A stretch of 49,182 bases of DNA from Bacillota bacterium (lineage in GTDB: Bacteria > Bacillota > Limnochordia > DTU087). The DNA lies in assembly GCA_012798695.1 (NCBI GenBank), contig JAAZMR010000127.1:1-49182 (forward strand). The letters are read 5' to 3'. Shown piece after piece: positions 31,807 to 49,182 of this stretch. Each line of letters opens with the position of its first letter. Within the stretch, counting starts at the first letter, position 1. The notes beneath the pieces are model-generated. The model was given only the letters and a program-made list of their open reading frames with translations. It was not told where the DNA came from and did not search any database. A program made the translations under genes and the position numbers.

Positions 31807-33732
31807 ATGATGCGAGTGACATTCATATGGCAGGAGCAAAGTGGGGATAGCTGGCAACAAAGGCAGAAGCAAGTTACCACCACCGGTGATAAGACAGTAC
31901 TGGGCCTTGCCCGGGAAGCGGATGTCAAAATCGATGCCACCTGTGGAGGGCGGGGGCGTTGTGGACGCTGTAAAGTACTCATATGCGGGCCACTGAACGA
32001 AGTTTCCGAGAGCGAAAAGCAGCTCTTGGCCAAGGAAGAGCTAGCCGGAGGTGTAAGGCTGGCATGTTATGCTCGACCAAAGGGAGATATCCAGGTAGAG
32101 ATACCTACCAGCAAGACGGAGCTGGTACAGATACTCACAGAGGGTACTGACCAGACGGTGCCGGTAGAGCCAGATATTACTAAGCGATATCTGGTTGTGG
32201 AGAAACCGCAGCTAGAGACACCGGCCGGCGATCGAGAACGTTTGCTGGCGGCTCTCCATAAGTCGGGGCAGCCCGCTGGCAAAATCCCCGTGAGAGTCAT
32301 GACGGATCTGCCCGAGGTTCTCCGCAGACGAGACCATAAGGTGACCGTCACCTGTTGGCAGGATCACATAGTTGCTGTTGAAAGTGGCGATACTACCGAT
32401 GAATTATATGGCCTAGCCATTGATATAGGCACCACAACGGTTGTCGGTGGATTGGTGGACTTACGGCAAGGCAAAGAACTAGCCGTGGCCGCCCGCCTCA
32501 ATGGCCAAGCTGCCTACGGAGCCGATGTGATTTCCAGGGTGGAATATGCATCTAATGGAGCTGCTCAGCTGAGACGTTTGCAGCAAGCGGTAGTGGACAC
32601 GCTGAATGGGATTGTGGCAGATTTAGAGAAGAAGACTGGAGTTTCGCCTGGGAGAATCAGTCGGGTAGTTTTGGTCGGTAATACTTGTATGCAGCACCTT
32701 GCCTTGGGGATTTCACCCACCTATATTGCTCGCTCACCATATACCCCTGCCTTTAGTCAGCGGATTGACGTCATCGCTGCACAATTGCGTTTGGACGTAC
32801 ATCCCGAGGCAGTAGTCACGTTCTTGCCAAATGTAGCCGGATTTGTAGGTGCTGATACAATCGGAGTTGTCTTAGCTACTGGGTTAGCAAAGCAGTCTCG
32901 CCGGGTGGTTATGATCGACATCGGTACCAATGGTGAGCTGGTAATGTCCTATGAGGGAAAGATGGTTTCCTGTTCCACTGCGGCAGGCCCGGCCTTTGAA
33001 GGAGCGCAGATCAGTAGCGGCATGCGGGCTGGTGAAGGTGCAATTGAATTTGTGGAAATCGATCAAGATATGGATAGCTTGGTAATCGGCGGCACGCGGC
33101 CCAGGGGGATATGTGGTTCGGGGCTGATTGATTTGGTGGCGGAGCTGCTGCGAGTAGGCATCATCGATCAGACAGGTAGGCTGCAGGATGCTGCGGAAGT
33201 GGACGGGTTATCGCCACAGCTGCTAGACCGTATAAGGCCCGGTGAGATGGGCAATGAATTCGTGGTGGCATGGGCTGATGCAACAGCTGATGGTCAAGAC
33301 ATCGTACTAACACAAAAAGACATCAGGGAATTGCAGCTCGCCAAAGGGGCTATTCGTGCAGGCACCAAGATTCTGCAAAAGATGTTGGGTATCGAGGATG
33401 ACGACATCGATGAGCTCCTGCTAGCAGGTGCCTTTGGTAATTACATTCGCAAGGAAAGTGCTATGGGAATGGGCCTTTTACCCACTATTCCTTTGGATAG
33501 AATTCGTTCAGTGGGGAATGCAGCGCGGGTAGGTGCCCGCCTTTGCCTAATCTCTCAGGCCAGTCTCGAGGAAGCAAGTCGCGTAGCATCAGAGATCGAA
33601 TATGTGGAGCTATCTGGCCGGCCGGATTTTCAGGAAGCTTTCATGGATGCCATGTTATTTCCTCCCAACACACTGAGTTCGCAAGATAGTACCGAAATTG
33701 ACAAAAAGGTACCAAGGGATCAGGCAGTGTGA
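31807..33732 (+). CDS. RACo-like corrinoid protein activator (DUF4445)
   Basis: This 641-aa protein has an N-terminal [2Fe-2S] ferredoxin domain with Cys 46, 52, 55 and 87 (ATCGGRGRCGRCKV, LACYARP). A linker is followed by an ASKHA-fold C-terminal part with GLAIDIGTTTVVGGLVDL, VMIDIGTNGELVMS and LLLAGAFGNYIRKES. RACo/RamA-type proteins reduce inactive Co(II) corrinoid to Co(I) using ATP. The gene for a corrinoid protein follows 63 bases downstream and is the probable client. The pair is likely to be in the folD operon. Confidence 0.9.
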   Translation: MMRVTFIWQEQSGDSWQQRQKQVTTTGDKTVLGLAREADVKIDATCGGRGRCGRCKVLICGPLNEVSESEKQLLAKEELAGGVRLACYARPKGDIQVEIPTSKTELVQILTEGTDQTVPVEPDITKRYLVVEKPQLETPAGDRERLLAALHKSGQPAGKIPVRVMTDLPEVLRRRDHKVTVTCWQDHIVAVESGDTTDELYGLAIDIGTTTVVGGLVDLRQGKELAVAARLNGQAAYGADVISRVEYASNGAAQLRRLQQAVVDTLNGIVADLEKKTGVSPGRISRVVLVGNTCMQHLALGISPTYIARSPYTPAFSQRIDVIAAQLRLDVHPEAVVTFLPNVAGFVGADTIGVVLATGLAKQSRRVVMIDIGTNGELVMSYEGKMVSCSTAAGPAFEGAQISSGMRAGEGAIEFVEIDQDMDSLVIGGTRPRGICGSGLIDLVAELLRVGIIDQTGRLQDAAEVDGLSPQLLDRIRPGEMGNEFVVAWADATADGQDIVLTQKDIRELQLAKGAIRAGTKILQKMLGIEDDDIDELLLAGAFGNYIRKESAMGMGLLPTIPLDRIRSVGNAARVGARLCLISQASLEEASRVASEIEYVELSGRPDFQEAFMDAMLFPPNTLSSQDSTEIDKKVPRDQAV

Positions 33733-33795: not shown

Positions 33796-34437
33796 ATGGC
33801 AGTTCTACAGGAAATGGCAGATGCCTTAGTGGTCGGCAATGCTAACAAAGTAAAGGAATTGACTGAAAAGGCCTTGGCCGAGGGGATTACTCCCGGCAAC
33901 ATCATAAAGGAAGGCCTCGTGCCGGGAATGGCCGTTGTAGGCGAACGTTTCAAGAAGAACGAGATATATGTTCCCGAGGTCCTAATCGCAGCTCGAGCTA
34001 TGCAGGCTGGTCTTTCCATAGTTAAACCCTTACTGAGTGAAGCAGAGGCTGCCGAGAGATTGGGTACAGTCTGTATTGGAACAGTGAAGGGCGATCTCCA
34101 TGACATCGGGAAAAATCTGGTAGCCATGATGCTGGAGGGTGCCGGTTTTGAGGTAATTGATCTAGGTGTGGATGTGGCTGCAGAGAAGTTTGTAGAGGCT
34201 GTTAAGGAACATAATGCTACACATGTGGCACTTTCCGCTCTGTTGACCACTACCATGGTGACTATGAAAGAGACAATCGAAGCCTTAGCTGATGCCGGTC
34301 TTAGAGATAGTGTGAAGGTTATGGTGGGTGGAGCGCCGGTGACCCAGAGCTTCGCGGATGATATCGGAGCAGATGGTTATGCCCCTGATTCCGGTACCGC
34401 TGTTGATGTAGCAAAACGGCTCATTGGGGTTGCCTGA
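33796..34437 (+). CDS. Methyltransferase corrinoid protein (MtbC/MttC family)
   Basis: This 213-aa protein has an N-terminal B12-binding-2 helical cap (residues 1-85) and a Rossmann-type B12-binding domain. The latter contains GTVKGDLHDIGKNLVAMML with the cobalt-ligating His, VALSALLTTTMVTMK and MVGGAPVTQ. It carries methyl groups between a substrate methyltransferase and an acceptor. No MttB, MtaB or MtrH gene lies in the window, so its substrate is unknown. AGGAGG precedes the ATG. A terminator follows. Confidence 0.94.
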   Translation: MAVLQEMADALVVGNANKVKELTEKALAEGITPGNIIKEGLVPGMAVVGERFKKNEIYVPEVLIAARAMQAGLSIVKPLLSEAEAAERLGTVCIGTVKGDLHDIGKNLVAMMLEGAGFEVIDLGVDVAAEKFVEAVKEHNATHVALSALLTTTMVTMKETIEALADAGLRDSVKVMVGGAPVTQSFADDIGADGYAPDSGTAVDVAKRLIGVA

Positions 34438-40782: not shown

Positions 40783-40824
40783 GATCCTATAATACCCAAG
40801 ACAAACCTAAGAGAGGTGATTCAC

Positions 40825-41748
40825 ATGCAGTTTCAGCGGATTTCAGCTTCAAGAATTCTCTTACTCATGGCCGTGATTATGTTTCTGGTTCTGCCAGGGC
40901 CTACTTTAGCCCAAGATAGCCCAGGGACAGGTTTCCCAGTAGTTGTTATTGATGGATTGGGGCGGGAAATATCAATAAGAAAGCCTCCCCAGAGAATCGT
41001 TTCTCTCACTCCCAGTGTTACGGAAAATCTATTCGCTCTCGGCCTGGATGAGCAGATAGTTGGGGTGAGCAACTATAGTGATTATCCAGCAGCGGCCCAG
41101 AGCAAACCAGTAGTCGGAGATGCCTTTCAGCTGAACTATGAGGCAATTCTGCTCTTGGAACCGGATCTGATCATTGGTGATGCCCAATTGGTCAAAAACT
41201 ATATGGTCAAGTTAGAAGAGCTGGGATTACCTGTCTTGGCCATTAACCCCGCCAACCTACAGGAAGTAATGGACTCCATGCTGCTTTTGGGACAGGCAAC
41301 CGGTGCCATTAGTGCAGCCACTCGGGTAACAGCCGAGATGCAAGAGCAAGTTCACTATGTACAGACAGCTATTCAAGATCTTCCCCAAAAGGCTAGACCA
41401 TTGGTTTTCGTCGAAGTGTGGGATGAGCCCCTGATGACGTGTGGCCCTGGTAGTTTCATGCAGGAGCTCATAGAATTAGCCGGTGGACACAATCTTGCCG
41501 CTGATGCCGGTGGTGCCTGGATCGAATACAGCAGCGAATTGGTAGTGGAAAGAGACCCAGATGTAATTCTGTTGACCAGGCCCTATAGGGATGAACTAAT
41601 GGCTAGAAGTGCATGGCAGGGAATCAGTGCAGTAAAAGAGGGTCGGGTGGTAGAGGTAGATTCTGATCCGTTCGTGCGGACGACCCCCAGACTAGCTGAT
41701 GCTTTGGTAGATCTGGCGGCGATTTTGCATCCCGAGAAATTTCAGTAA
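40825..41748 (+). CDS. btuF: Cobalamin-type ABC transporter substrate-binding protein (BtuF-like)
   Basis: This 307-aa PF01497 protein has a signal peptide (LLLMAVIMFLVLPGPTLAQ), then RIVSLTPSVTENLFALGL, VGVSNYSDYP and EPDLIIGD. The riboswitch in front makes a corrinoid the likely ligand, although iron-siderophore proteins share the fold. Unusually for a Gram-positive binding protein, the signal peptide has no lipobox cysteine, so the protein would be released or periplasmic. ATG at 40825 follows GAGAGGTG. Confidence 0.9.
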   Translation: MQFQRISASRILLLMAVIMFLVLPGPTLAQDSPGTGFPVVVIDGLGREISIRKPPQRIVSLTPSVTENLFALGLDEQIVGVSNYSDYPAAAQSKPVVGDAFQLNYEAILLLEPDLIIGDAQLVKNYMVKLEELGLPVLAINPANLQEVMDSMLLLGQATGAISAATRVTAEMQEQVHYVQTAIQDLPQKARPLVFVEVWDEPLMTCGPGSFMQELIELAGGHNLAADAGGAWIEYSSELVVERDPDVILLTRPYRDELMARSAWQGISAVKEGRVVEVDSDPFVRTTPRLADALVDLAAILHPEKFQ

Positions 41749-41763
41749 AGTGGTGTTTTACTC

Positions 41764-42558
41764 ATGGCCAAGCAACTGGTTGTTGGAAATCTAAGTTTTG
41801 GCTACGATATACGTCCAATTATGCAGGATATAAGCTTCACGGTCTCATCCGGGGAAATGCTGGGGATCATAGGCCCTAATGGGTCGGGAAAAACCACGCT
41901 GCTGAAGCTGATCAGCCAGCTCCTTGTGCCGGATGAGGGGAGAGTTCTGATTGATGGGGAAGATACCAGCCTGTGGTCCCATCGCACCTTGGCAAGAACT
42001 ATGGCTGTAGTGCCTCAAGAAACCCAGATCAGGTTTGATTTTACTGTAGAAGAAATCGTGGAAATGGGGCGGAGCCCCTACCTAGGCCGTTTTCAGGCCA
42101 TGACTAAGCATGATCGGGAGATTGTGGTTGAAGCCATGCGAGCTACGAGTGTCCTGCCTCTGGCAAAGCGATCGATCATGGAGTTGTCTGGAGGGGAAAG
42201 ACAGCGGGTGATTGTGGCTAGGGCGCTTGCCCAAGAACCCCAGGTGCTATTGCTGGATGAACCTACAGCTTCCTTAGATATTAATCACGAAGTAGAGATC
42301 TTTGAACTACTGAGGACGCTGACCATCCAGGAAGGATTAGTGAGTATCGCTGTTTTGCATGATCTCAATCTGGCTGCCGAGTATTGTGATCGTTTGCTCT
42401 TGCTCTCTCAAGGCCGAGTGGCGGCAGAGGGGTTTGCTGAAGAGGTGCTGACCGAGGAGATCATCTCATCGGTTTATGGGATAGATGTGGTTGTGTACAA
42501 GAATCTCGTGACCGGGCGGCCCCAGATCCAGGCCCTGGCCCCCAGTTTGAATAGGTAA
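41764..42558 (+). CDS. btuD: Cobalamin-type ABC transporter ATP-binding protein (BtuD-like)
   Basis: This 264-aa ATPase of the FecE/BtuD type has Walker A IGPNGSGKTTLLKL, signature LSGGERQRVIVARAL, Walker B VLLLDEPTASLD and the switch His in LHDLNLAAEYCD. It starts 15 bases after btuF. A BtuC/FecCD permease gene, normally between the two, is absent here. Confidence 0.93.
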   Translation: MAKQLVVGNLSFGYDIRPIMQDISFTVSSGEMLGIIGPNGSGKTTLLKLISQLLVPDEGRVLIDGEDTSLWSHRTLARTMAVVPQETQIRFDFTVEEIVEMGRSPYLGRFQAMTKHDREIVVEAMRATSVLPLAKRSIMELSGGERQRVIVARALAQEPQVLLLDEPTASLDINHEVEIFELLRTLTIQEGLVSIAVLHDLNLAAEYCDRLLLLSQGRVAAEGFAEEVLTEEIISSVYGIDVVVYKNLVTGRPQIQALAPSLNR

Positions 42559-42596
42559 ATAGATAGGCAAACAAGCAGTTAATCTAGGAGAGGGGG

Positions 42597-42636
42597 GAGC
42601 TAGTATCGGCTCTCCAGGAGTCGGATACTAGTGCTC
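42597..42636 (+). promoter_or_regulatory. Hairpin at the start of the second btuF gene
   Basis: GAGCTAGTATC (42597-42607) pairs with GATACTAGTGCTC (42624-42636) in an 11-bp helix with a 2-base bulge. The 16-base loop exposes AGGAG (42616-42620), and the TTG start comes two bases after the stem. This would place the ribosome site in the loop and may control translation. Confidence 0.55.
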
Positions 42637-42638
42637 GA

Positions 42639-43541
42639 TTGAAAAAGACCAAGATTGCCTTAATCGCTATAATGATTGTGCTTGCTTTTTCGACTTTGAT
42701 CTATGCTGCTGAGCAAGGATTGACGGTCACCGATCAGGTGGGTAGAACCGTGAACCTTGAGACAATACCGGTTCGCATTGTCTCCTTGGCCCCTGGCAAT
42801 ACTGAGATTCTCTATGCTTTGGGCTTGGCAGACCATATTGTCGGGGTATCCTCTTACTGTGATTATCCCCCAGCAGCCCTTGGTAAGGCGAAAACCGGTG
42901 GGTTTTCGGAAGTCAGCATAGAGAGCGTAGTGGCTCTAGAGCCAGATGTAGTTTTTGCTACAGGTGGAGTACAGGATGAGGTAGCTAAGCAACTCACTCA
43001 GTTGGGAGTAAAGGTGGTTGTCCTCGATGCTTGCAGCCTTGCTGACGTGTTGGCCGCGATCAAGTTAGTGGGAGTGGTCACTGGCCGCACAGAGGCAGCC
43101 GAGAAGATAGTATTACAGCTACAAGAGCACATTAGAGCGATCAAAGCAGTAGTTCAACCATGGGCTAAGGATACACCGCGCAAAGTATTTTATGAAGTAT
43201 GGTATGACCCACCGATTAGTGTCGGCCCCGGTTCGTTTATACATGACCTGATTGAGATGGCCGGTGGCATCAATCTCATGGCGGACAGTGGCAACCCCTA
43301 TCCTGTAGCAAATCTGGAGGAGATCATTGATGCAGATCCAGATGTGATTATCTATGCTCATGGTGCCATGTCCACGGCTCAGGTTGCAGAAAGAGATGGT
43401 TGGCGGCAGATGGAGGCAGTACGCACAGGACGTATAGTACAGATAGAAGATGAGAATATCCTGGTCCGCCCCGGCCCTCGCATAGTTGACGGCCTAGAGG
43501 CTTTGGCAAAGGCCATTTATCCGGAGGCATTCACTCAATGA
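42639..43541 (+). CDS. Second BtuF-like substrate-binding protein
   Basis: This 300-aa protein has a signal peptide (KKTKIALIAIMIVLAFSTLIYAA) and the PF01497 fold: RIVSLAPGNTEILYALGL, VGVSSYCDYPPAA, LEPDVVFATG. It is a paralogue of the first BtuF at similar length. No lipobox cysteine is present. The start is a TTG (42639) because it gives the basic N terminus of the signal peptide; the linear distance from AGGAG is 18 bases, bridged by the hairpin. It may bind a different corrinoid such as cobinamide. Its stop overlaps the cobU start (ATGA). Confidence 0.88.
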   Translation: MKKTKIALIAIMIVLAFSTLIYAAEQGLTVTDQVGRTVNLETIPVRIVSLAPGNTEILYALGLADHIVGVSSYCDYPPAALGKAKTGGFSEVSIESVVALEPDVVFATGGVQDEVAKQLTQLGVKVVVLDACSLADVLAAIKLVGVVTGRTEAAEKIVLQLQEHIRAIKAVVQPWAKDTPRKVFYEVWYDPPISVGPGSFIHDLIEMAGGINLMADSGNPYPVANLEEIIDADPDVIIYAHGAMSTAQVAERDGWRQMEAVRTGRIVQIEDENILVRPGPRIVDGLEALAKAIYPEAFTQ

Positions 43542-44119
43542 ACTCACATCAACTGATTCTTGTTACCGGTGGTGTGCGTAGTGGCAAGAGCCGTCTAGCC
43601 GAGGCTATGGCACTGGCAATAGGTGGTCCTGCAGCCTATATTGCTACCAGCAGGATAGAAGATGAAGAAATGTTGGAACGGGTCAGCAGGCACCAGGAGA
43701 GACGGCCCGCAGATTGGGTTACCATTGACGCCCCGTGGGATCTCGCCGAAGCTCTGCGGAAGCTGCCTGCAGGCACTCGAACAGTGATTATTGACTGCCT
43801 GGGGGTCTTTGTCAGCAACCTTCTGCTTAAATATGCTGGCAGCAATGACCCCACACAGCTGGAAGTAGAGAAACAGGTCCTGGATACTGTCTCATCATTT
43901 TTGCAGGCTCAAGCGGCAGCATCGGTGACGACCATTGTGGTGACCAATGAAACGGGTTTGGGGGTTGTTCCACCTTCTGCCCTAGGGCGGGCCTTCCGTG
44001 ACTATCTGGGCTGGGCTAATCAGATGGTGGCTGCGGCAGCTGACCGGGTGTATTTGGTGGTAGCGGGTATTCCACTACTGATCAAAAATGGCCAAGAGTC
44101 GGCTCTACCGCTCGTCTAG
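43538..44119 (+). CDS. cobU: Adenosylcobinamide kinase/guanylyltransferase
   Basis: This 193-aa enzyme phosphorylates adenosylcobinamide and adds GMP. It has the P-loop TGGVRSGKSRLAE, ATSRIEDEEMLERVSRHQERRP with the catalytic His, IDCLGVFVSNLL and VTNETGLGVVPPSALGR. Translation is coupled to the second btuF. Together with cbiB and cobS it builds the nucleotide loop of cobalamin. Confidence 0.95.
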   Translation: MNSHQLILVTGGVRSGKSRLAEAMALAIGGPAAYIATSRIEDEEMLERVSRHQERRPADWVTIDAPWDLAEALRKLPAGTRTVIIDCLGVFVSNLLLKYAGSNDPTQLEVEKQVLDTVSSFLQAQAAASVTTIVVTNETGLGVVPPSALGRAFRDYLGWANQMVAAAADRVYLVVAGIPLLIKNGQESALPLV

Positions 44120-44189
44120 CTTAGGCTGTTTCAATAAGGGATAAGAGCTGCTCTTCTGGAGTCGTTCATTACCGGGGGGAATTAGATTG

Positions 44190-45092
44190 ATGGTTAGTTT
44201 GCAGGGCAAATGCCTGATGGTCCAAGGTGTAGCATCCGGTGTGGGCAAGAGCCTGCTGGCTGCTGCCTTGTGCCGGATCTTGGTCCAAGATGGATTGCGG
44301 GTAGCACCTTTCAAGGCATGGAACATGGCGCTTAACTCCTATATCACAGCTGATGGTCGAGAGATTGGTTGGGCTCAGGGGATCCAGGCTGAGGCCGCCG
44401 GGATCCTCGCCACCGGTCACATGAATCCTTTCCTCCTTAAACCGTGTGGCAGGGGCCGAACTCAGATCATCATCAGTGGGAAGCCTGAGCAAGGTGGTTA
44501 TTCGGAAGATATCGAGGGCCTACTACCAGACGGGCCTTGGCCGGTGATCACCCAGTCACTGGACCACTTACGACAGCGATATGATGTGATCATCATTGAA
44601 GGCGCGGGCAGCCCTGCAGAAATAAACCTGAAGGATAGGGACTTGGCCAACATGGGTGTAGCCCGTTTGGCTGGAGCCCCTGTCCTTCTGATAGCTGATA
44701 TCGATCAGGGCGGTGCTCTTGCTGCCTTGGTCGGAACCTGTGAGCTGCTGGATACAGTAGAAAACCAGCATATTGCTGGTTTTGTGATCAATAAGTTCCG
44801 GGGTGATTTTGACATCTTGGTACCTGGGCTTGAAGCGATCGAGGCAATGACAGGCAAGCCTATTTTGGGAGTCATTCCATATGTACCAGGCCTATCCTTG
44901 GGAGAAGAGGACTCCATGGGGTTACCCGAGATGAGTACAGCTAGGACGGCACAGCCATTACTTCAACCAGATCAGAGGTCTGATCTACTAGACGCTGAAG
45001 AGCGGGACGAACACTTAGATAGATGGGCCGCGGCTGTACGAGCTAGCTTAGATATGGATCAGATATACCAGCTGCTAGAAAGAGGTATCTGA
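44190..45092 (+). CDS. Short CobQ-like amidoligase lacking the glutaminase domain (copy 1)
   Basis: This 300-aa protein matches the N-terminal ATP-binding half of cobyric acid synthase. It has LMVQGVASGVGKSLLAAALCRI, APFKAWNMALNSYITADGRE, IIIEGAGSPAEINLKDRDLANMG, LIADIDQGGALAALVGT and NKFRGDFDILVPGL. After the IPYVPGLSL segment about 220 residues of GATase domain expected in CobQ (about 500 aa) are missing. The last 30 residues (DRWAAAVRASLDMDQIYQLL) look like the CobQ C-terminal helix. The canonical FKSQNM is FKAWNM here. ATG at 44190 follows GGGGGG. Amidation from free ammonia, or with a separate glutaminase, are both possible. Confidence 0.85.
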   Translation: MVSLQGKCLMVQGVASGVGKSLLAAALCRILVQDGLRVAPFKAWNMALNSYITADGREIGWAQGIQAEAAGILATGHMNPFLLKPCGRGRTQIIISGKPEQGGYSEDIEGLLPDGPWPVITQSLDHLRQRYDVIIIEGAGSPAEINLKDRDLANMGVARLAGAPVLLIADIDQGGALAALVGTCELLDTVENQHIAGFVINKFRGDFDILVPGLEAIEAMTGKPILGVIPYVPGLSLGEEDSMGLPEMSTARTAQPLLQPDQRSDLLDAEERDEHLDRWAAAVRASLDMDQIYQLLERGI

Positions 45093-45102
45093 GGAGGAAA
45101 AG

Positions 45103-45966
45103 ATGACTCCTATGGGACGGACTTTGATGGTTCAAGGATGTGCATCTAGTGTAGGGAAGAGCCTGATTACGGCTGCTCTTTGCCGGATTCTGGCCCAAGA
45201 TGGTTGGCAGGTGGCTCCCTTCAAGGCTCAGAATATGGGTTCAAGATCTCTTACCGTGGGAGGAAAGGAGATCAGCGCCGTTCAGGCTATGCAAGCTCAG
45301 GCCGCGGGAGTGCCTCCCTGTCCGGAGATGAACCCGATACTGCAAAAACCCATCACCGATACTGTAGCCGAAGTGATTGTTATGGGCGAATCTATAGGGA
45401 AGCTGTCAGTCAAAGAATACTTTCATTTCAAGCGAACCCAAGGCAAGGCCATCGTGGCCGACGCATTACAGCGATTAAGGCGACGGTTTGACATTATCAT
45501 GCTTGAGGGTGGCGGCAGTCCGGCTGAAATCAATTTGAGGGAGCATGATCTAGTGAATATGGGTGCTGCAAATCTAGCCGATGCACCTGTGCTTCTAGTT
45601 GGTGATATTGATCGGGGCGGAGTGTTTGCCTATATTACTGGTACCATGTTGTTGCTCACTACAGAGGAGAGAAACCGGATTAAAGCAGTAGTGATCAACA
45701 AGTTTAGGGGTGAGATTTCCTTACTGGAACCGGGGCTTTTGATGTTGGAGGAAAAGATCAGACGGCCGATTTTAGGGGTTATTCCTCATATAAGTGATCT
45801 TTGCCTGCCTCAAGCAGAGGAATTGCATGTCACTAATGGGGGCCAAATCAAGTCCACAGAAGCATCTTATCAGGACACATATGATCGACTGGCCCAGATC
45901 GTAAGAGAATCTATTTCTATGGATTTACTATATGAAATAGTCGGTTTGCCATCGGGCCGAACATGA
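45103..45966 (+). CDS. Short CobQ-like amidoligase lacking the glutaminase domain (copy 2)
   Basis: This 287-aa paralogue of the preceding gene starts 10 bases after it behind AGGAGG. It has LMVQGCASSVGKSLITAALCRI, APFKAQNMGSRSLTVGGKE, IMLEGGGSPAEINLREHDLVNMG, LVGDIDRGGVFAYITGT and NKFRGEISLLEPGL. The C-terminal tail is YDRLAQIVRESISMDLLYEIV, again a CobQ-type terminal helix without the GATase domain. This copy keeps the KEYFHFK region lost in copy 1 but has lost the ALNS motif that copy 1 keeps. The two may form a heteromer. Product and substrate are inferred only. Confidence 0.85.
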   Translation: MTPMGRTLMVQGCASSVGKSLITAALCRILAQDGWQVAPFKAQNMGSRSLTVGGKEISAVQAMQAQAAGVPPCPEMNPILQKPITDTVAEVIVMGESIGKLSVKEYFHFKRTQGKAIVADALQRLRRRFDIIMLEGGGSPAEINLREHDLVNMGAANLADAPVLLVGDIDRGGVFAYITGTMLLLTTEERNRIKAVVINKFRGEISLLEPGLLMLEEKIRRPILGVIPHISDLCLPQAEELHVTNGGQIKSTEASYQDTYDRLAQIVRESISMDLLYEIVGLPSGRT

Positions 45967-46030: not shown

Positions 46031-46996
46031 GTGTGGGATGTGTTGATACCAGGCCAACCTATGCAAGCAGTAATGGCCTTCGTTGTTGACCTTTTATTTG
46101 GGGATCCGAGTTTTGTGACCCATCCGGTAATTTTAATGGGTAAGTTGATCAGTTGGGGCGAAGGTTTTCTCTGGCATGACGACCAGGATGCTCAAGGGCA
46201 AAAATTGGCCGGAACCCTACTGGTTCTAGGGGTTGTCGGTATTGCGTTTGGGGTAGGGTATGCTTTATTGCTGATGGCTGCCCATATCCACGGGGTGCTG
46301 GCACATTTGCTTTCTATCTGGCTGATTTCTACCACCATTGCTGCTAAAGGGCTCTGGACAGAGGCTGGCCAGATTCAACACTGGCTTCAACAAGATAATC
46401 TAGCAGAAGCGCGCAAAGCAGTGGGCAGAATTGTCGGACGAGATACCGCCCAGCTCGATACAGCCGGTGTGATTCGGGCGACCGTAGAGTCAGTGGCTGA
46501 GAATACGGTCGATGCGGTTATCGCACCACTGTTCTATGCCCTGTTGGCGGGAGCCCCACTGGCCCTGGCCTACCGCGCGGTCAATACTCTGGACTCTATG
46601 GTTGGATATAAGAATGAGCGGTACCGGGATTTTGGCTGGGCGGCAGCCCGGGTAGATGATATTGTCAACTACATTCCTGCCCGCCTGACTGGATTATTGA
46701 TGACCGTTAGCGCAGCTTTTTTGAGTCTGGATGCTAAAAACTGCTGGTTAATCCTTTGCCGCGATAGCAGCAAGCACCCTAGTCCCAACTCAGGACTACC
46801 GGAAGCTGCGGTGGCGGGGGCGCTGCAAATACAGCTTGGGGGGGAAAGCAGCTATCAGGGAACAGTGTCTTTCCGGCCTTACTTAGGCAACCCAGGTAAC
46901 GCGCTCATCCCCAACCATATCAATCAAACTCGCTGGTTAATGGTGATGAGCGGCATTTTGGCAATCCTGGCTGGATCGATCATCTGGGTCGTTTAG
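46031..46996 (+). CDS. cbiB: Adenosylcobinamide-phosphate synthase
   Basis: This 321-aa membrane protein joins adenosylcobyric acid to aminopropanol phosphate. It shows VVDLLFGDPSFVTHPVILMGK, ATVESVAENTVDAVIAPLFY, NTLDSMVGYKNERYRDFGWAAARVDD and several membrane helices. The start is GTG 46031 after GGGGATACGGGA, a weak ribosome site. Cobyric acid, the product expected from CobQ, is its substrate, which ties it to the genes upstream. Confidence 0.92.
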   Translation: MWDVLIPGQPMQAVMAFVVDLLFGDPSFVTHPVILMGKLISWGEGFLWHDDQDAQGQKLAGTLLVLGVVGIAFGVGYALLLMAAHIHGVLAHLLSIWLISTTIAAKGLWTEAGQIQHWLQQDNLAEARKAVGRIVGRDTAQLDTAGVIRATVESVAENTVDAVIAPLFYALLAGAPLALAYRAVNTLDSMVGYKNERYRDFGWAAARVDDIVNYIPARLTGLLMTVSAAFLSLDAKNCWLILCRDSSKHPSPNSGLPEAAVAGALQIQLGGESSYQGTVSFRPYLGNPGNALIPNHINQTRWLMVMSGILAILAGSIIWVV

Positions 46997-47095
46997 GGTG
47001 AATCTGGGACACACGCATATTGAAGCCGACGGCTTTTGGGTTGGAAGTGTGGTATCCCAGTCAAATACTGCTCTAGGTTTTGGGAGGAGAGGCAC

Positions 47096-47638
47096 GTGGC
47101 GGTGGCAAATAGGCATTTGGATTTGGGGCTTGTGCAAGTATATACAGGTAATGGTAAGGGGAAGACTACAGCAGCTTTGGGACAGGCCCTACGGGCCATC
47201 GGGCGTGGGTTGACAGTCTATATGGCACAGTTTATCAAAGGTCAAGAAACGGGGGAGCTCCTAGCCGTAGAGCGATTGGCCCCGGACTTTACCATTCGCC
47301 AATTTGGTTCCGGTAAGTTCATCGTACAGCGGGAACCCAGCCAAGATGAGCGAGATCTGGCCAGAACCGGTTGGTTGGAGATTGTCAAAGTGGTTGATGA
47401 TGGTCAACATGACATTGTTATTCTAGATGAGATCAGCCATGCCATCCGAGTAGGCCTGATTGAGCTCGAACAGGTCTTGCAGCTAATTGCCCAGCGCCCT
47501 CGAGGTGTGGAGATCATCCTTACAGGGCGCAGTATGCCCAGAGAATTGCTGGAGGCAGCCGATCTTGTGACTGATATGGTGGCGATAAAACACCCCTACG
47601 ACCAAGGTATACAGGTACGAAAGGGGATTGAGTTTTGA
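47096..47638 (+). CDS. cobO: Cob(I)yrinic acid a,c-diamide adenosyltransferase
   Basis: This 180-aa CobO/BtuR-type protein adenosylates Co(I) corrinoids using ATP. It has the P-loop VYTGNGKGKTTAALG, YMAQFIKGQETGEL, VILDEISHAI and ILTGRSMPRELLEAADLVTDM. The GTG at 47096 follows GGGAGGAGAGG. The frame is open upstream, but residues before the GTG are unlike the family. It overlaps cobS at the stop (TTGA). Confidence 0.94.
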   Translation: MAVANRHLDLGLVQVYTGNGKGKTTAALGQALRAIGRGLTVYMAQFIKGQETGELLAVERLAPDFTIRQFGSGKFIVQREPSQDERDLARTGWLEIVKVVDDGQHDIVILDEISHAIRVGLIELEQVLQLIAQRPRGVEIILTGRSMPRELLEAADLVTDMVAIKHPYDQGIQVRKGIEF

Positions 47639-48390
47639 CCATGGAGTTTATTTGGGCATTGCAGTTCCTCACACGGTTGCCGGTATTTACCCGAGCTCAG
47701 CGAGAGACCACCGCTGAGGATCTAGCTCGCTGTATGGCCGCTTTCCCGCTAGTAGGAGCTTTTCTTGGGTTAATATTGGTGGGTACCCATTGGGTAACAG
47801 CTCAGGTTTTCCCTTCAACCGTATCGGCAGTGCTGCTGATCGCAACACTGGTACTTCTCACTGGCAATTTGCACTGGGATGGCTGGATGGATACTGCCGA
47901 TGGTTTACTGTCCGGGCATAGCGGGGAGCGAGCTCTAGACATCATGAAAGACAGTCGGGTTGGCGCTAACGCAGTGATCTGGGGCTGCCTGGGACTGCTG
48001 ACTGAGTATGTTCTACTCAATCGCCTACTAGCCTTGCCCACTTTTGAGAAGAATGCCTGGCTGGTAGCGATCTTGGCTTGGAGTCGATGGAATGCTGTTA
48101 TCGGTACATATATATTTCCCTACGCTAGGAAGACAGGAGGCACGGCTAAGGCCTTTACAGCTGGGATTTCTGCTAGAGAAGTGACTATCTCAACCGTGAT
48201 CGCTATGGCAGTCAGTCTGCCGGTTCTGGGATGGAAGACTCTAGAATTGTTGGGTGGCAATCTGATCATAGTACTGGCCTTGGGTAAGGTGGCAGAAAGG
48301 CGCCTAGGAGGCGTCACTGGTGACGTATTAGGTGCTGTGATCATAGCCGGTGAACTCATCGGCTTACTCATCGGTGGAGGGTGGCTGTGA
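47635..48390 (+). CDS. cobS: Adenosylcobinamide-GDP ribazoletransferase
   Basis: This 251-aa membrane enzyme joins adenosylcobinamide-GDP to alpha-ribazole phosphate, the last step of cobalamin assembly. It contains ALQFLTRLPVFTR, LHWDGWMDTADGLLSGHSGERAL, IMKDSRVGANAVIWG and membrane helices. The start is TTG 47635, coupled to the cobO stop, or ATG 47641. CobT, which makes the ribazole phosphate, is not in the window. Confidence 0.94.
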   Translation: MTMEFIWALQFLTRLPVFTRAQRETTAEDLARCMAAFPLVGAFLGLILVGTHWVTAQVFPSTVSAVLLIATLVLLTGNLHWDGWMDTADGLLSGHSGERALDIMKDSRVGANAVIWGCLGLLTEYVLLNRLLALPTFEKNAWLVAILAWSRWNAVIGTYIFPYARKTGGTAKAFTAGISAREVTISTVIAMAVSLPVLGWKTLELLGGNLIIVLALGKVAERRLGGVTGDVLGAVIIAGELIGLLIGGGWL

Positions 48391-49182
48391 CATTTGAGCA
48401 GACTGTCATACCGAAGCGGGGGACTGCTTGGGCACCCGGAGCGTGTGGCGAATTGGTAGAGGGGCTCATAGGGGACCAGGCCTTCCTGGTTAGCTGCCCC
48501 ATTAATCTATATAGCAAAGCTAAGGTATGTCTTTATCCGTCGGGGCACGGGCAGGGGACTCAATTCCAGAATAGCGACACTCGCTGGCCTAAAGCCCGCC
48601 AGGCGATTGCAGCGGCTCTCGAGGCCTGGGAGGAAGATGCTTGGGCAGTGGATTTGGAGATTGAATCATCCATCCCTCTTGGGAAGGGAATGGGCAGCAG
48701 TACGGCGGATATCGGGGCGGCTCTAGCGGCCACTGCTTTGGCCTTAGGGCGGGTCCCCAATCCAGTGGAAATTACTCAGTTTGCTGTTAGGACTGAACCT
48801 ACCGATAGTACTATTTTCCCGGAGCTGACTATCGTTGACCACATACAGGGCAGTATACTTAGCGGTATAGGCAAACCACCTCCTTTACAGGTAATGGTCT
48901 TCGATTGGGGAGGCGAGATCAGCTCCGATAATTGGTACCAGGACAATTCCCCATTCCTACCAATAGTAAGAGAGCAAGGCCCCCTCATCGCACGGGCTCT
49001 GGAGATGATCCGACAAGGAGTGAGGTGGGGAGACGGAAATATGATCGCGCAAGGGGCTACTCTCAGTGCTTTGCTGCATCAAGCGATTTTGCATAAGCAG
49101 GAACTAGGCAGTGTGGCCAGATATGCACGTGAGCAGGGTGCTTATGGAGTGACCATAGCGCATAGTGGCACAGTGGCAGGAA
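48387..49182 (+). CDS. pduX: PduX-like L-threonine kinase (GHMP kinase), partial
   Basis: The first 265 residues run to the window end without a stop. The protein has the N-terminal APGACGELVEGLIGDQAFLV and the GHMP phosphate loop SSIPLGKGMGSSTADIGAAL. PduX makes L-threonine phosphate, which CobD decarboxylates to the aminopropanol phosphate used by CbiB. The GTG overlaps the cobS stop (GTGA). A CobD-type decarboxylase is expected downstream. Confidence 0.87.
   Translation, partial: MTFEQTVIPKRGTAWAPGACGELVEGLIGDQAFLVSCPINLYSKAKVCLYPSGHGQGTQFQNSDTRWPKARQAIAAALEAWEEDAWAVDLEIESSIPLGKGMGSSTADIGAALAATALALGRVPNPVEITQFAVRTEPTDSTIFPELTIVDHIQGSILSGIGKPPPLQVMVFDWGGEISSDNWYQDNSPFLPIVREQGPLIARALEMIRQGVRWGDGNMIAQGATLSALLHQAILHKQELGSVARYAREQGAYGVTIAHSGTVAG

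Follow-up and report, generated by a model that had tools for sequence, protein, structure and literature searches.

The window, i.e., the whole stretch of 49,182 nucleotides that was analyzed, carries two tandem CobQ-like genes on the plus strand, which we designated QA and QB. QA (44190..45092; 300 aa) starts with the ATG at 44190 and its stop codon ends at 45092, and QB (45103..45966; 287 aa) starts with the ATG at 45103 and stops at 45964-45966, with a gap of 10 nt between the two genes. The products, predicted to be GATase-less paralogues A and B of cobyric acid synthase, contain the motifs APFKAWNM and APFKAQNM and the P-loops GVASGVGKS and GCASSVGKS, respectively. A ribosome site, AGGAGG, was read directly at 45092..45097 (plus strand), just 5' of the QB ATG, and a G-run is located at 44174-44179 upstream of the QA start.

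The pair is located between cobU (cobinamide kinase/guanylyltransferase; 43538..44119) and cbiB (adenosylcobinamide-phosphate synthase; 46031..46996), which is followed by cobO/btuR (corrinoid adenosyltransferase; 47036..47638) and cobS (cobalamin synthase; 47635..48390), all on the plus strand and assigned by domain and family profile matches. These four genes adjoining the pair provide the late corrinoid operon context that characterizes CobQ/CbiP. Next comes a conserved neighbour on the plus strand, a GHMP kinase gene (48381..49182, extending past the window end) that matched PF00288 and, judging from the operon, probably encodes a PduX-like L-threonine kinase. Upstream of cobU, a corrinoid uptake set at 40816..43541 (plus strand), named from the sequences and conserved in synteny with the pair, encodes a BtuF-like binding protein, a BtuD-like ATPase and a second, different BtuF-like binding protein. 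The single ATPase gene lies between the two binding protein genes, with no permease gene between them; the far end of the operon in a relative (G004) encodes a BtuC-like permease (L070 3263-4342). Farther upstream, the window contains genes for a ferredoxin-type corrinoid activator-like protein (31807-33732) and a corrinoid-binding protein (33796-34437), both named from their sequences, and therefore the organism does use corrinoids. The initial annotation had described two tandem CobQ-like reading frames, with proper stops, inside a salvage operon, and both points held, the latter as a late corrinoid (salvage) context.

The assembly that contains the window is a draft MAG of 2.68 Mb in 130 contigs, rated 100% complete. 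The QA-QB pair, in the same order and with similar lengths, was also present in three other genera of the family, making four syntenic genera in total. The order btuF-btuD-btuF-cobU-QA-QB-cbiB-cobO-cobS-kinase was found on one contig in G004 and in pieces in G001 and G006, and the pair itself is split across two contigs in G001. Within the family, the dN values for QA and QB were 0.14–0.24, the dS values ranged from 0.84 to saturation, and the dN/dS ratio was about 0.1–0.2 in the pairs for which dS could be estimated. The pair is under purifying selection. Because the same pair, order and lengths recur in three other genera with this dN/dS ratio, a frameshift or assembly error was rejected, in agreement with the earlier argument against a sequencing error.

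QA and QB scored 339 and 328 bits, respectively, against the NCBIfam model of cobyric acid synthase, PRK00784 (cut-off, 273), and the alignments cover only model positions 1–243 of 480. The scores against TIGR00313 were 291 and 275 bits, under the cut-off of 310, and those against the CbiA/CobB models were at most 41 bits, far from the cut-off of 254 for that family. Pfam detected the CbiA/AAA_26 nucleotide-binding domain only, and a GATase_3 domain with the nucleophile Cys was not found in QA or QB by Pfam or by the genome-wide search. As first noticed, both genes are devoid of the glutaminase domain. The C-terminal tails of full-length CobQ proteins were then made into a profile, against which QA (44.2 bits) and QB (43.9 bits) were the top two among 33 short proteins, while the best of several hundred shuffled tails scored 9.5 bits. 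The AlphaFold model of QA (mean pLDDT 88, pTM 0.89) has confident helices at residues 269–286 and 289–298, behind a disordered segment of residues 242–262, where the GATase domain would sit. This linker (pLDDT <50, and alignment) corresponds to 44913..44975, and the kept CobQ tail of QA (residues 269–298; tail profile and AlphaFold) to 44994..45083; in QB, the kept C-terminal helix (residues 256–280; alignment and tail profile) corresponds to 45868..45942, all on the plus strand. The tail profile scores, together with the linker and helices of the model, place the excision of the GATase domain after the amidoligase half and before the terminal helix, as had been proposed from the sequence alone. 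The nearest solved folds were dethiobiotin synthetases, which are ligases without a glutaminase; a solved CobQ structure was not found by sequence search.

The catalytic-half residues that are invariant in full-length CobQ (P-loop GK, PFK, EGxGSPxE, N-F and others) are also invariant in the short CobQs, and QA and QB of the window both keep GKS and these residues. On the other hand, four positions in the NMALNS and GRAQ motifs, conserved in full-length CobQ, are relaxed in the short forms, and this relaxation would be consistent with the loss of a coupling to the glutaminase. QA and QB differ from each other in otherwise conserved motifs (AWNM and GWAQ versus AQNM and SAVQ). As amidoligases, QA and QB are CobQ proteins, and it is at the GATase domain that they depart from the glutamine-hydrolysing enzyme of that name. 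There is no need to invoke an entirely new activity of corrinoid modification, as also suggested initially, because the two genes do not leave the CobQ family and keep its conserved residues. QA as a replacement for CbiA was rejected as well; it scores as CobQ only, and QA-type genes also occur in genomes having CbiA.

In the whole-genome search, GATase_3 was not found in the assembly of the window, and all 14 control genomes were positive. It was not found in three relatives with the pair (G001, G004 and G006) either. By the same token, a stand-alone GATase_3 subunit of the MurT/GatD type was not found in the window's genome, and a GATase_3 subunit acting in trans was rejected for it. The initial annotation had considered a two-part amidase with a free-standing GATase_3, and this enzyme is unsupported because no GATase_3 was found in the genome or in the three pair-bearing relatives. 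The stand-alone GATase_3 proteins that we read in other short-CobQ genomes are located beside MurT (GatD), some of them without the Cys, and an archaeal match is PdxT beside PdxS. CbiA was not found in the window's genome: the other matches to the CbiA domain (PF01656) that we read were ParA/MinD/Mrp-like or SRP-type, and a sub-cut-off match on contig C16 is inside PyrG, so that a GATase-less CbiA elsewhere in the genome was rejected. None of 16 genomes of the class yielded CbiC, which marks corrin-ring synthesis. Because CbiA and CbiC were not found, the operon is assigned to a late or salvage pathway.

GATase-less CobQ is not restricted to this family. Of 398 genomes drawn evenly from the Bacillota phylum, 220 had CobQ (counted at E <1e-40), and 15 of the 220 (~7%) had only short forms of ~270–320 aa. 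Named genomes with short CobQ include a Halanaerobiaceae MAG (with a tandem pair), Fermentithermobacillaceae, Defluviitaleaceae and two Nitrosopumilales/Thaumarchaeota MAGs (L184 and L187), whose GATase-less CobQ has 279–280 aa and whose CbiA retains the glutaminase Cys. A single short CobQ is present in G025, Defluviitaleaceae and Nitrosopumilales. The data are mostly MAGs, and the comparison set was picked from searches, not at random. A survey of the pair in other genomes had been proposed at the outset; besides the synteny described above, it revealed that the loss is recurrent and tends to accompany other glutaminase losses.

The sister family f3 (G012, G017 and G021), which belongs to the same class, has the same tandem CobQ pair at full length. 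The nucleophile motif in active relatives is GICGGYQMLG, and the corresponding sequences in f3 are GIGSGFIMLG, GMGRGFVMLG and GIGRGLIILG for QA (three genomes) and GIGEGYAMLA or GIGEGHAMLA for QB (read in two genomes and cut off in the third), i.e., the Cys is changed to Gly. CbiA of G021 in this family has YAEDGG in place of YAECGG. G053 has a short QA and a full-length QB on another contig, and a pair with the intact Cys was found in the more distant MAG L148, Natroniella, Frackibacter and Halanaerobium. From these motifs and lengths, the CobQ forms make a series, apparently active, dead and excised. It follows from this series that the gene was duplicated before the domain was lost, and the CobQ tree has QA and QB on separate branches as old paralogues. 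In the tree of the amidoligase half, the short or dead CobQ forms need approximately 16 changes of state (16 by parsimony), at least 8 of which are forced by well-supported (starred) branches. Short CobQs have close full-length sisters (G028 for G025, G276 for G166/G346 and G337 for G381), and loss is therefore the simplest direction; the counts alone cannot separate gain from loss. In G346 and G166 (L220 and L221), the second short CobQ has lost the Lys of Walker A (GAGTS) as well as a large part of EGAGSPAEINL, and is probably a pseudoenzyme partner.

The window's genome has three class I GATase matches, compared with 7–10 in the controls: PyrG with the Cys, a PuuD-like hydrolase with the Cys, and the GMP synthase GuaA. 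This GuaA (L286:1465-2838, contig C17; 458 aa) has a shortened GATase half with LALGSGLH versus the active LGICYGMQ, and no nucleophile Cys; the GATase remnant of GuaA from G381 is even shorter. The nucleophile Cys of GuaA was lost in 10 of the 14 GATase-less-CobQ genomes with a readable GuaA GATase region and in 0 of the 8 controls (Fisher p = 0.0017), in a comparison that was made after the first cases had been seen and that treats related genomes as independent, 4 of the 10 losses coming from the window's own family. The phylogenetically independent pairs number only three, too few for significance, and are concordant or tied, never opposed. The CbiA Cys was lost in G021, G166, G173, G353 and G381, and kept in G455, G334, G419, G112 and two archaea. 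In G005 of the window's family, a genome without CobQ, a CbiA-like protein (L046) has YGEGGG for YGECGG, and its close relatives keep the Cys. GatD beside MurT is without the nucleophile Cys in G264 (AIGLGFQ; L242), G398 (GIGLGFQ; L241) and G334 (AVGLGFQ; L257), and TrpG/PabA lost it in G166, G228 and G346. Among the Ntn-type enzymes, Cys is changed to Ser in AsnB (G346 and G228), GlmS (G264) and PurF (G025 and G263), at loci L322, L323, L326, L329 and L338.

PyrG and PurF of the window's genome keep the nucleophile Cys, and therefore glutamine use is not abolished there. GuaA and/or CbiA are intact despite a short CobQ in G148, G263, G408 and G455, as is CbiA in the two archaea. CarA also lost its nucleophile in controls with full-length active CobQ (G028 and G354, and second copies in G106 and G369; L417, L418, L407 and L408), and this loss was rejected as an unspecific marker. 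The trend of glutaminase decay, as read from these motifs, is real but partial, and is not confined to the short-CobQ genomes.

Because the recurrent domain loss often accompanies other glutaminase damage, microbes with GATase-less CobQ probably form amides from free ammonia. We consider it likely that QA and QB represent cobyric acid synthases that lost the glutaminase domain and work with free ammonia, and the ammonia-dependent amidase of the initial annotation is thus supported as the best reading of the sequences. In the P-loop amidoligase half, ATP would activate the side-chain carboxylates of a corrinoid resembling (adenosyl)cobyrinic acid a,c-diamide, and dissolved NH3 would stand in for the ammonia released from glutamine by full-length CobQ. 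The two old paralogues would either split the four amidations or form a heterodimer; we infer this division of labour, as well as the use of ammonia and the substrate. Full-length amidotransferases can generally use ammonia in vitro (PMC3376133), and for the a,c-diamide synthase either glutamine or ammonia is given as the donor (PMC8123684). The domain loss is accompanied by a broader, partial decay of glutaminase function (GuaA, CbiA, GatD, TrpG and AsnB/GlmS/PurF in various genomes), and in the best reading QA and QB would be part of an incomplete shift in which free ammonia takes over from glutamine. In its widest form, to which we give slightly better than even chances, several Bacillota lineages, some from ammonia-rich anaerobic settings, would be abandoning glutamine enzyme by enzyme, with the glutaminases of CobQ, CbiA, GuaA, GatD and TrpG (class I) and of AsnB, GlmS and PurF (Ntn) excised or deprived of the nucleophile and the amidations running on free ammonia; the tandem CobQ pair would be the end stage, reached via a dead-domain intermediate. 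Biogas reactors are ammonia-rich. Relatives bear MAG names of a biogas-reactor series (PMC7038595).

Two further readings concern the division of labour. QA and QB may function only as a heterodimer, with catalysis confined to one subunit and a structural or substrate-holding role for the other. This arrangement is compatible with the use of ammonia, and we hold it tentatively, at somewhat less than even chances. The conserved tandem order, the age of the paralogues and their differences in otherwise conserved motifs point to it, as does the loss of the P-loop Lys (GAGTS) in the second gene of G166/G346. Dethiobiotin synthetase, the nearest solved fold, is also a dimer. CobQ itself has been described as dimeric (PMC8123684). 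However, a single short CobQ seems enough in G025, Defluviitaleaceae and Nitrosopumilales, and both copies in the window keep GKS and the invariant residues. A structural partner is therefore favoured in G166/G346, where the Lys is lost, whereas the window copies both look catalytic. The second reading, also possible but a little short of an even chance, is that each of the two enzymes has its own target carboxylates among b, d, e and g, or that the pair restores amides on corrinoids that are damaged or have been partly hydrolysed, during salvage, instead of being part of a pathway from cobyrinic acid. The fact that CbiA and CbiC were not found, the corrinoid uptake genes in the operon and the divergence of the putative substrate motifs are consistent with this, although canonical CobQ makes all four amidations alone (PMC8123684).

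It is unlikely that QA and QB work with a separate glutaminase of another fold (an amidase, nitrilase or class I GATase), with glutamine remaining the donor. Two-subunit amidotransferases are common (PMC3376133, Table 1), and the window's genome retains the PuuD-like class I hydrolase and PyrG, both with the Cys. However, GATase_3 was not found in this genome, the stand-alone GATase_3 proteins that were read in other short-CobQ genomes are GatD or PdxT, the f3 intermediates keep a dead GATase in cis, and GuaA, CbiA and GatD decay in parallel. Decaying pseudogenes or an assembly or frameshift artefact, which the missing domain and a draft MAG in 130 contigs could bring to mind, are extremely improbable and for practical purposes already refuted by the same architecture in four genera, the purifying selection, the intact catalytic motifs, the proper starts and stops and the absence of a GATase_3 remnant anywhere in the genome.

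CobQ is by definition regarded as a glutamine-hydrolysing enzyme, and free ammonia is usually considered too scarce in cells to be a source of amide nitrogen. The natural series of active, dead and excised CobQ, repeated many times, offers a direct handle on the purpose of the glutaminase domain and on when it is dispensable. If the parallel decay in GuaA, CbiA, GatD and other enzymes can be taken at face value, some organisms have replaced glutamine by free ammonia as the source of amide nitrogen; the label 'glutamine-hydrolyzing' would then be wrong for many genes, and this pattern of glutaminase loss would be a genomic marker of high-ammonia life. The short enzymes also suggest compact ammonia-driven amidases for B12 work.

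No description of a GATase-less CobQ was found in searches of open-licence PubMed Central. QA and QB share with CobQ/CbiP (EC 6.3.5.10; PRK00784, TIGR00313) the amidoligase half, the P-loop, the EGAGSPAEINL motif, the C-terminal helix and the cob operon context, and differ from it in that both are without GATase_3 and are tandem diverged paralogues. In MurT/GatD, the lipid II isoglutaminyl synthase, a CobQ-type GATase_3 is a separate subunit of an ATP-dependent amidase, whereas the window's genome is without such a subunit, and MurT is a Mur ligase. Vertebrate carbamoyl-phosphate synthetase I is ammonia-dependent and has lost the glutaminase Cys; it retains the dead domain, as do CobQ and CbiA of f3, but is one eukaryotic enzyme, whereas several enzymes and a domain excision are concerned here. 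Dethiobiotin synthetase BioD, the closest solved fold, is an ATP-dependent ligase without a glutaminase like QA and QB, but its substrates are a diamine and CO2 instead of a corrinoid. A functional parallel may be the single-domain NAD synthetase NadE, which uses only ammonia and has no glutaminase partner, in contrast to the glutamine-dependent two-domain NADS (PMC3376133). As in QA and QB, a synthetase domain stands without a glutaminase and the genome search for a partner was negative (for GATase_3 only, in the case of QA and QB). Table 1 of that paper contains no glutaminase-free GuaA, PyrG, AsnB, PurL, TrpDE, CarAB or GatABC, and CobQ is absent from it (PMC3376133). NadE is an unrelated enzyme whose ammonia form was argued to be ancestral (PMC3376133), whereas the full-length relatives point to loss in CobQ. 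By analogy, QA and QB probably work like single-domain NadE.
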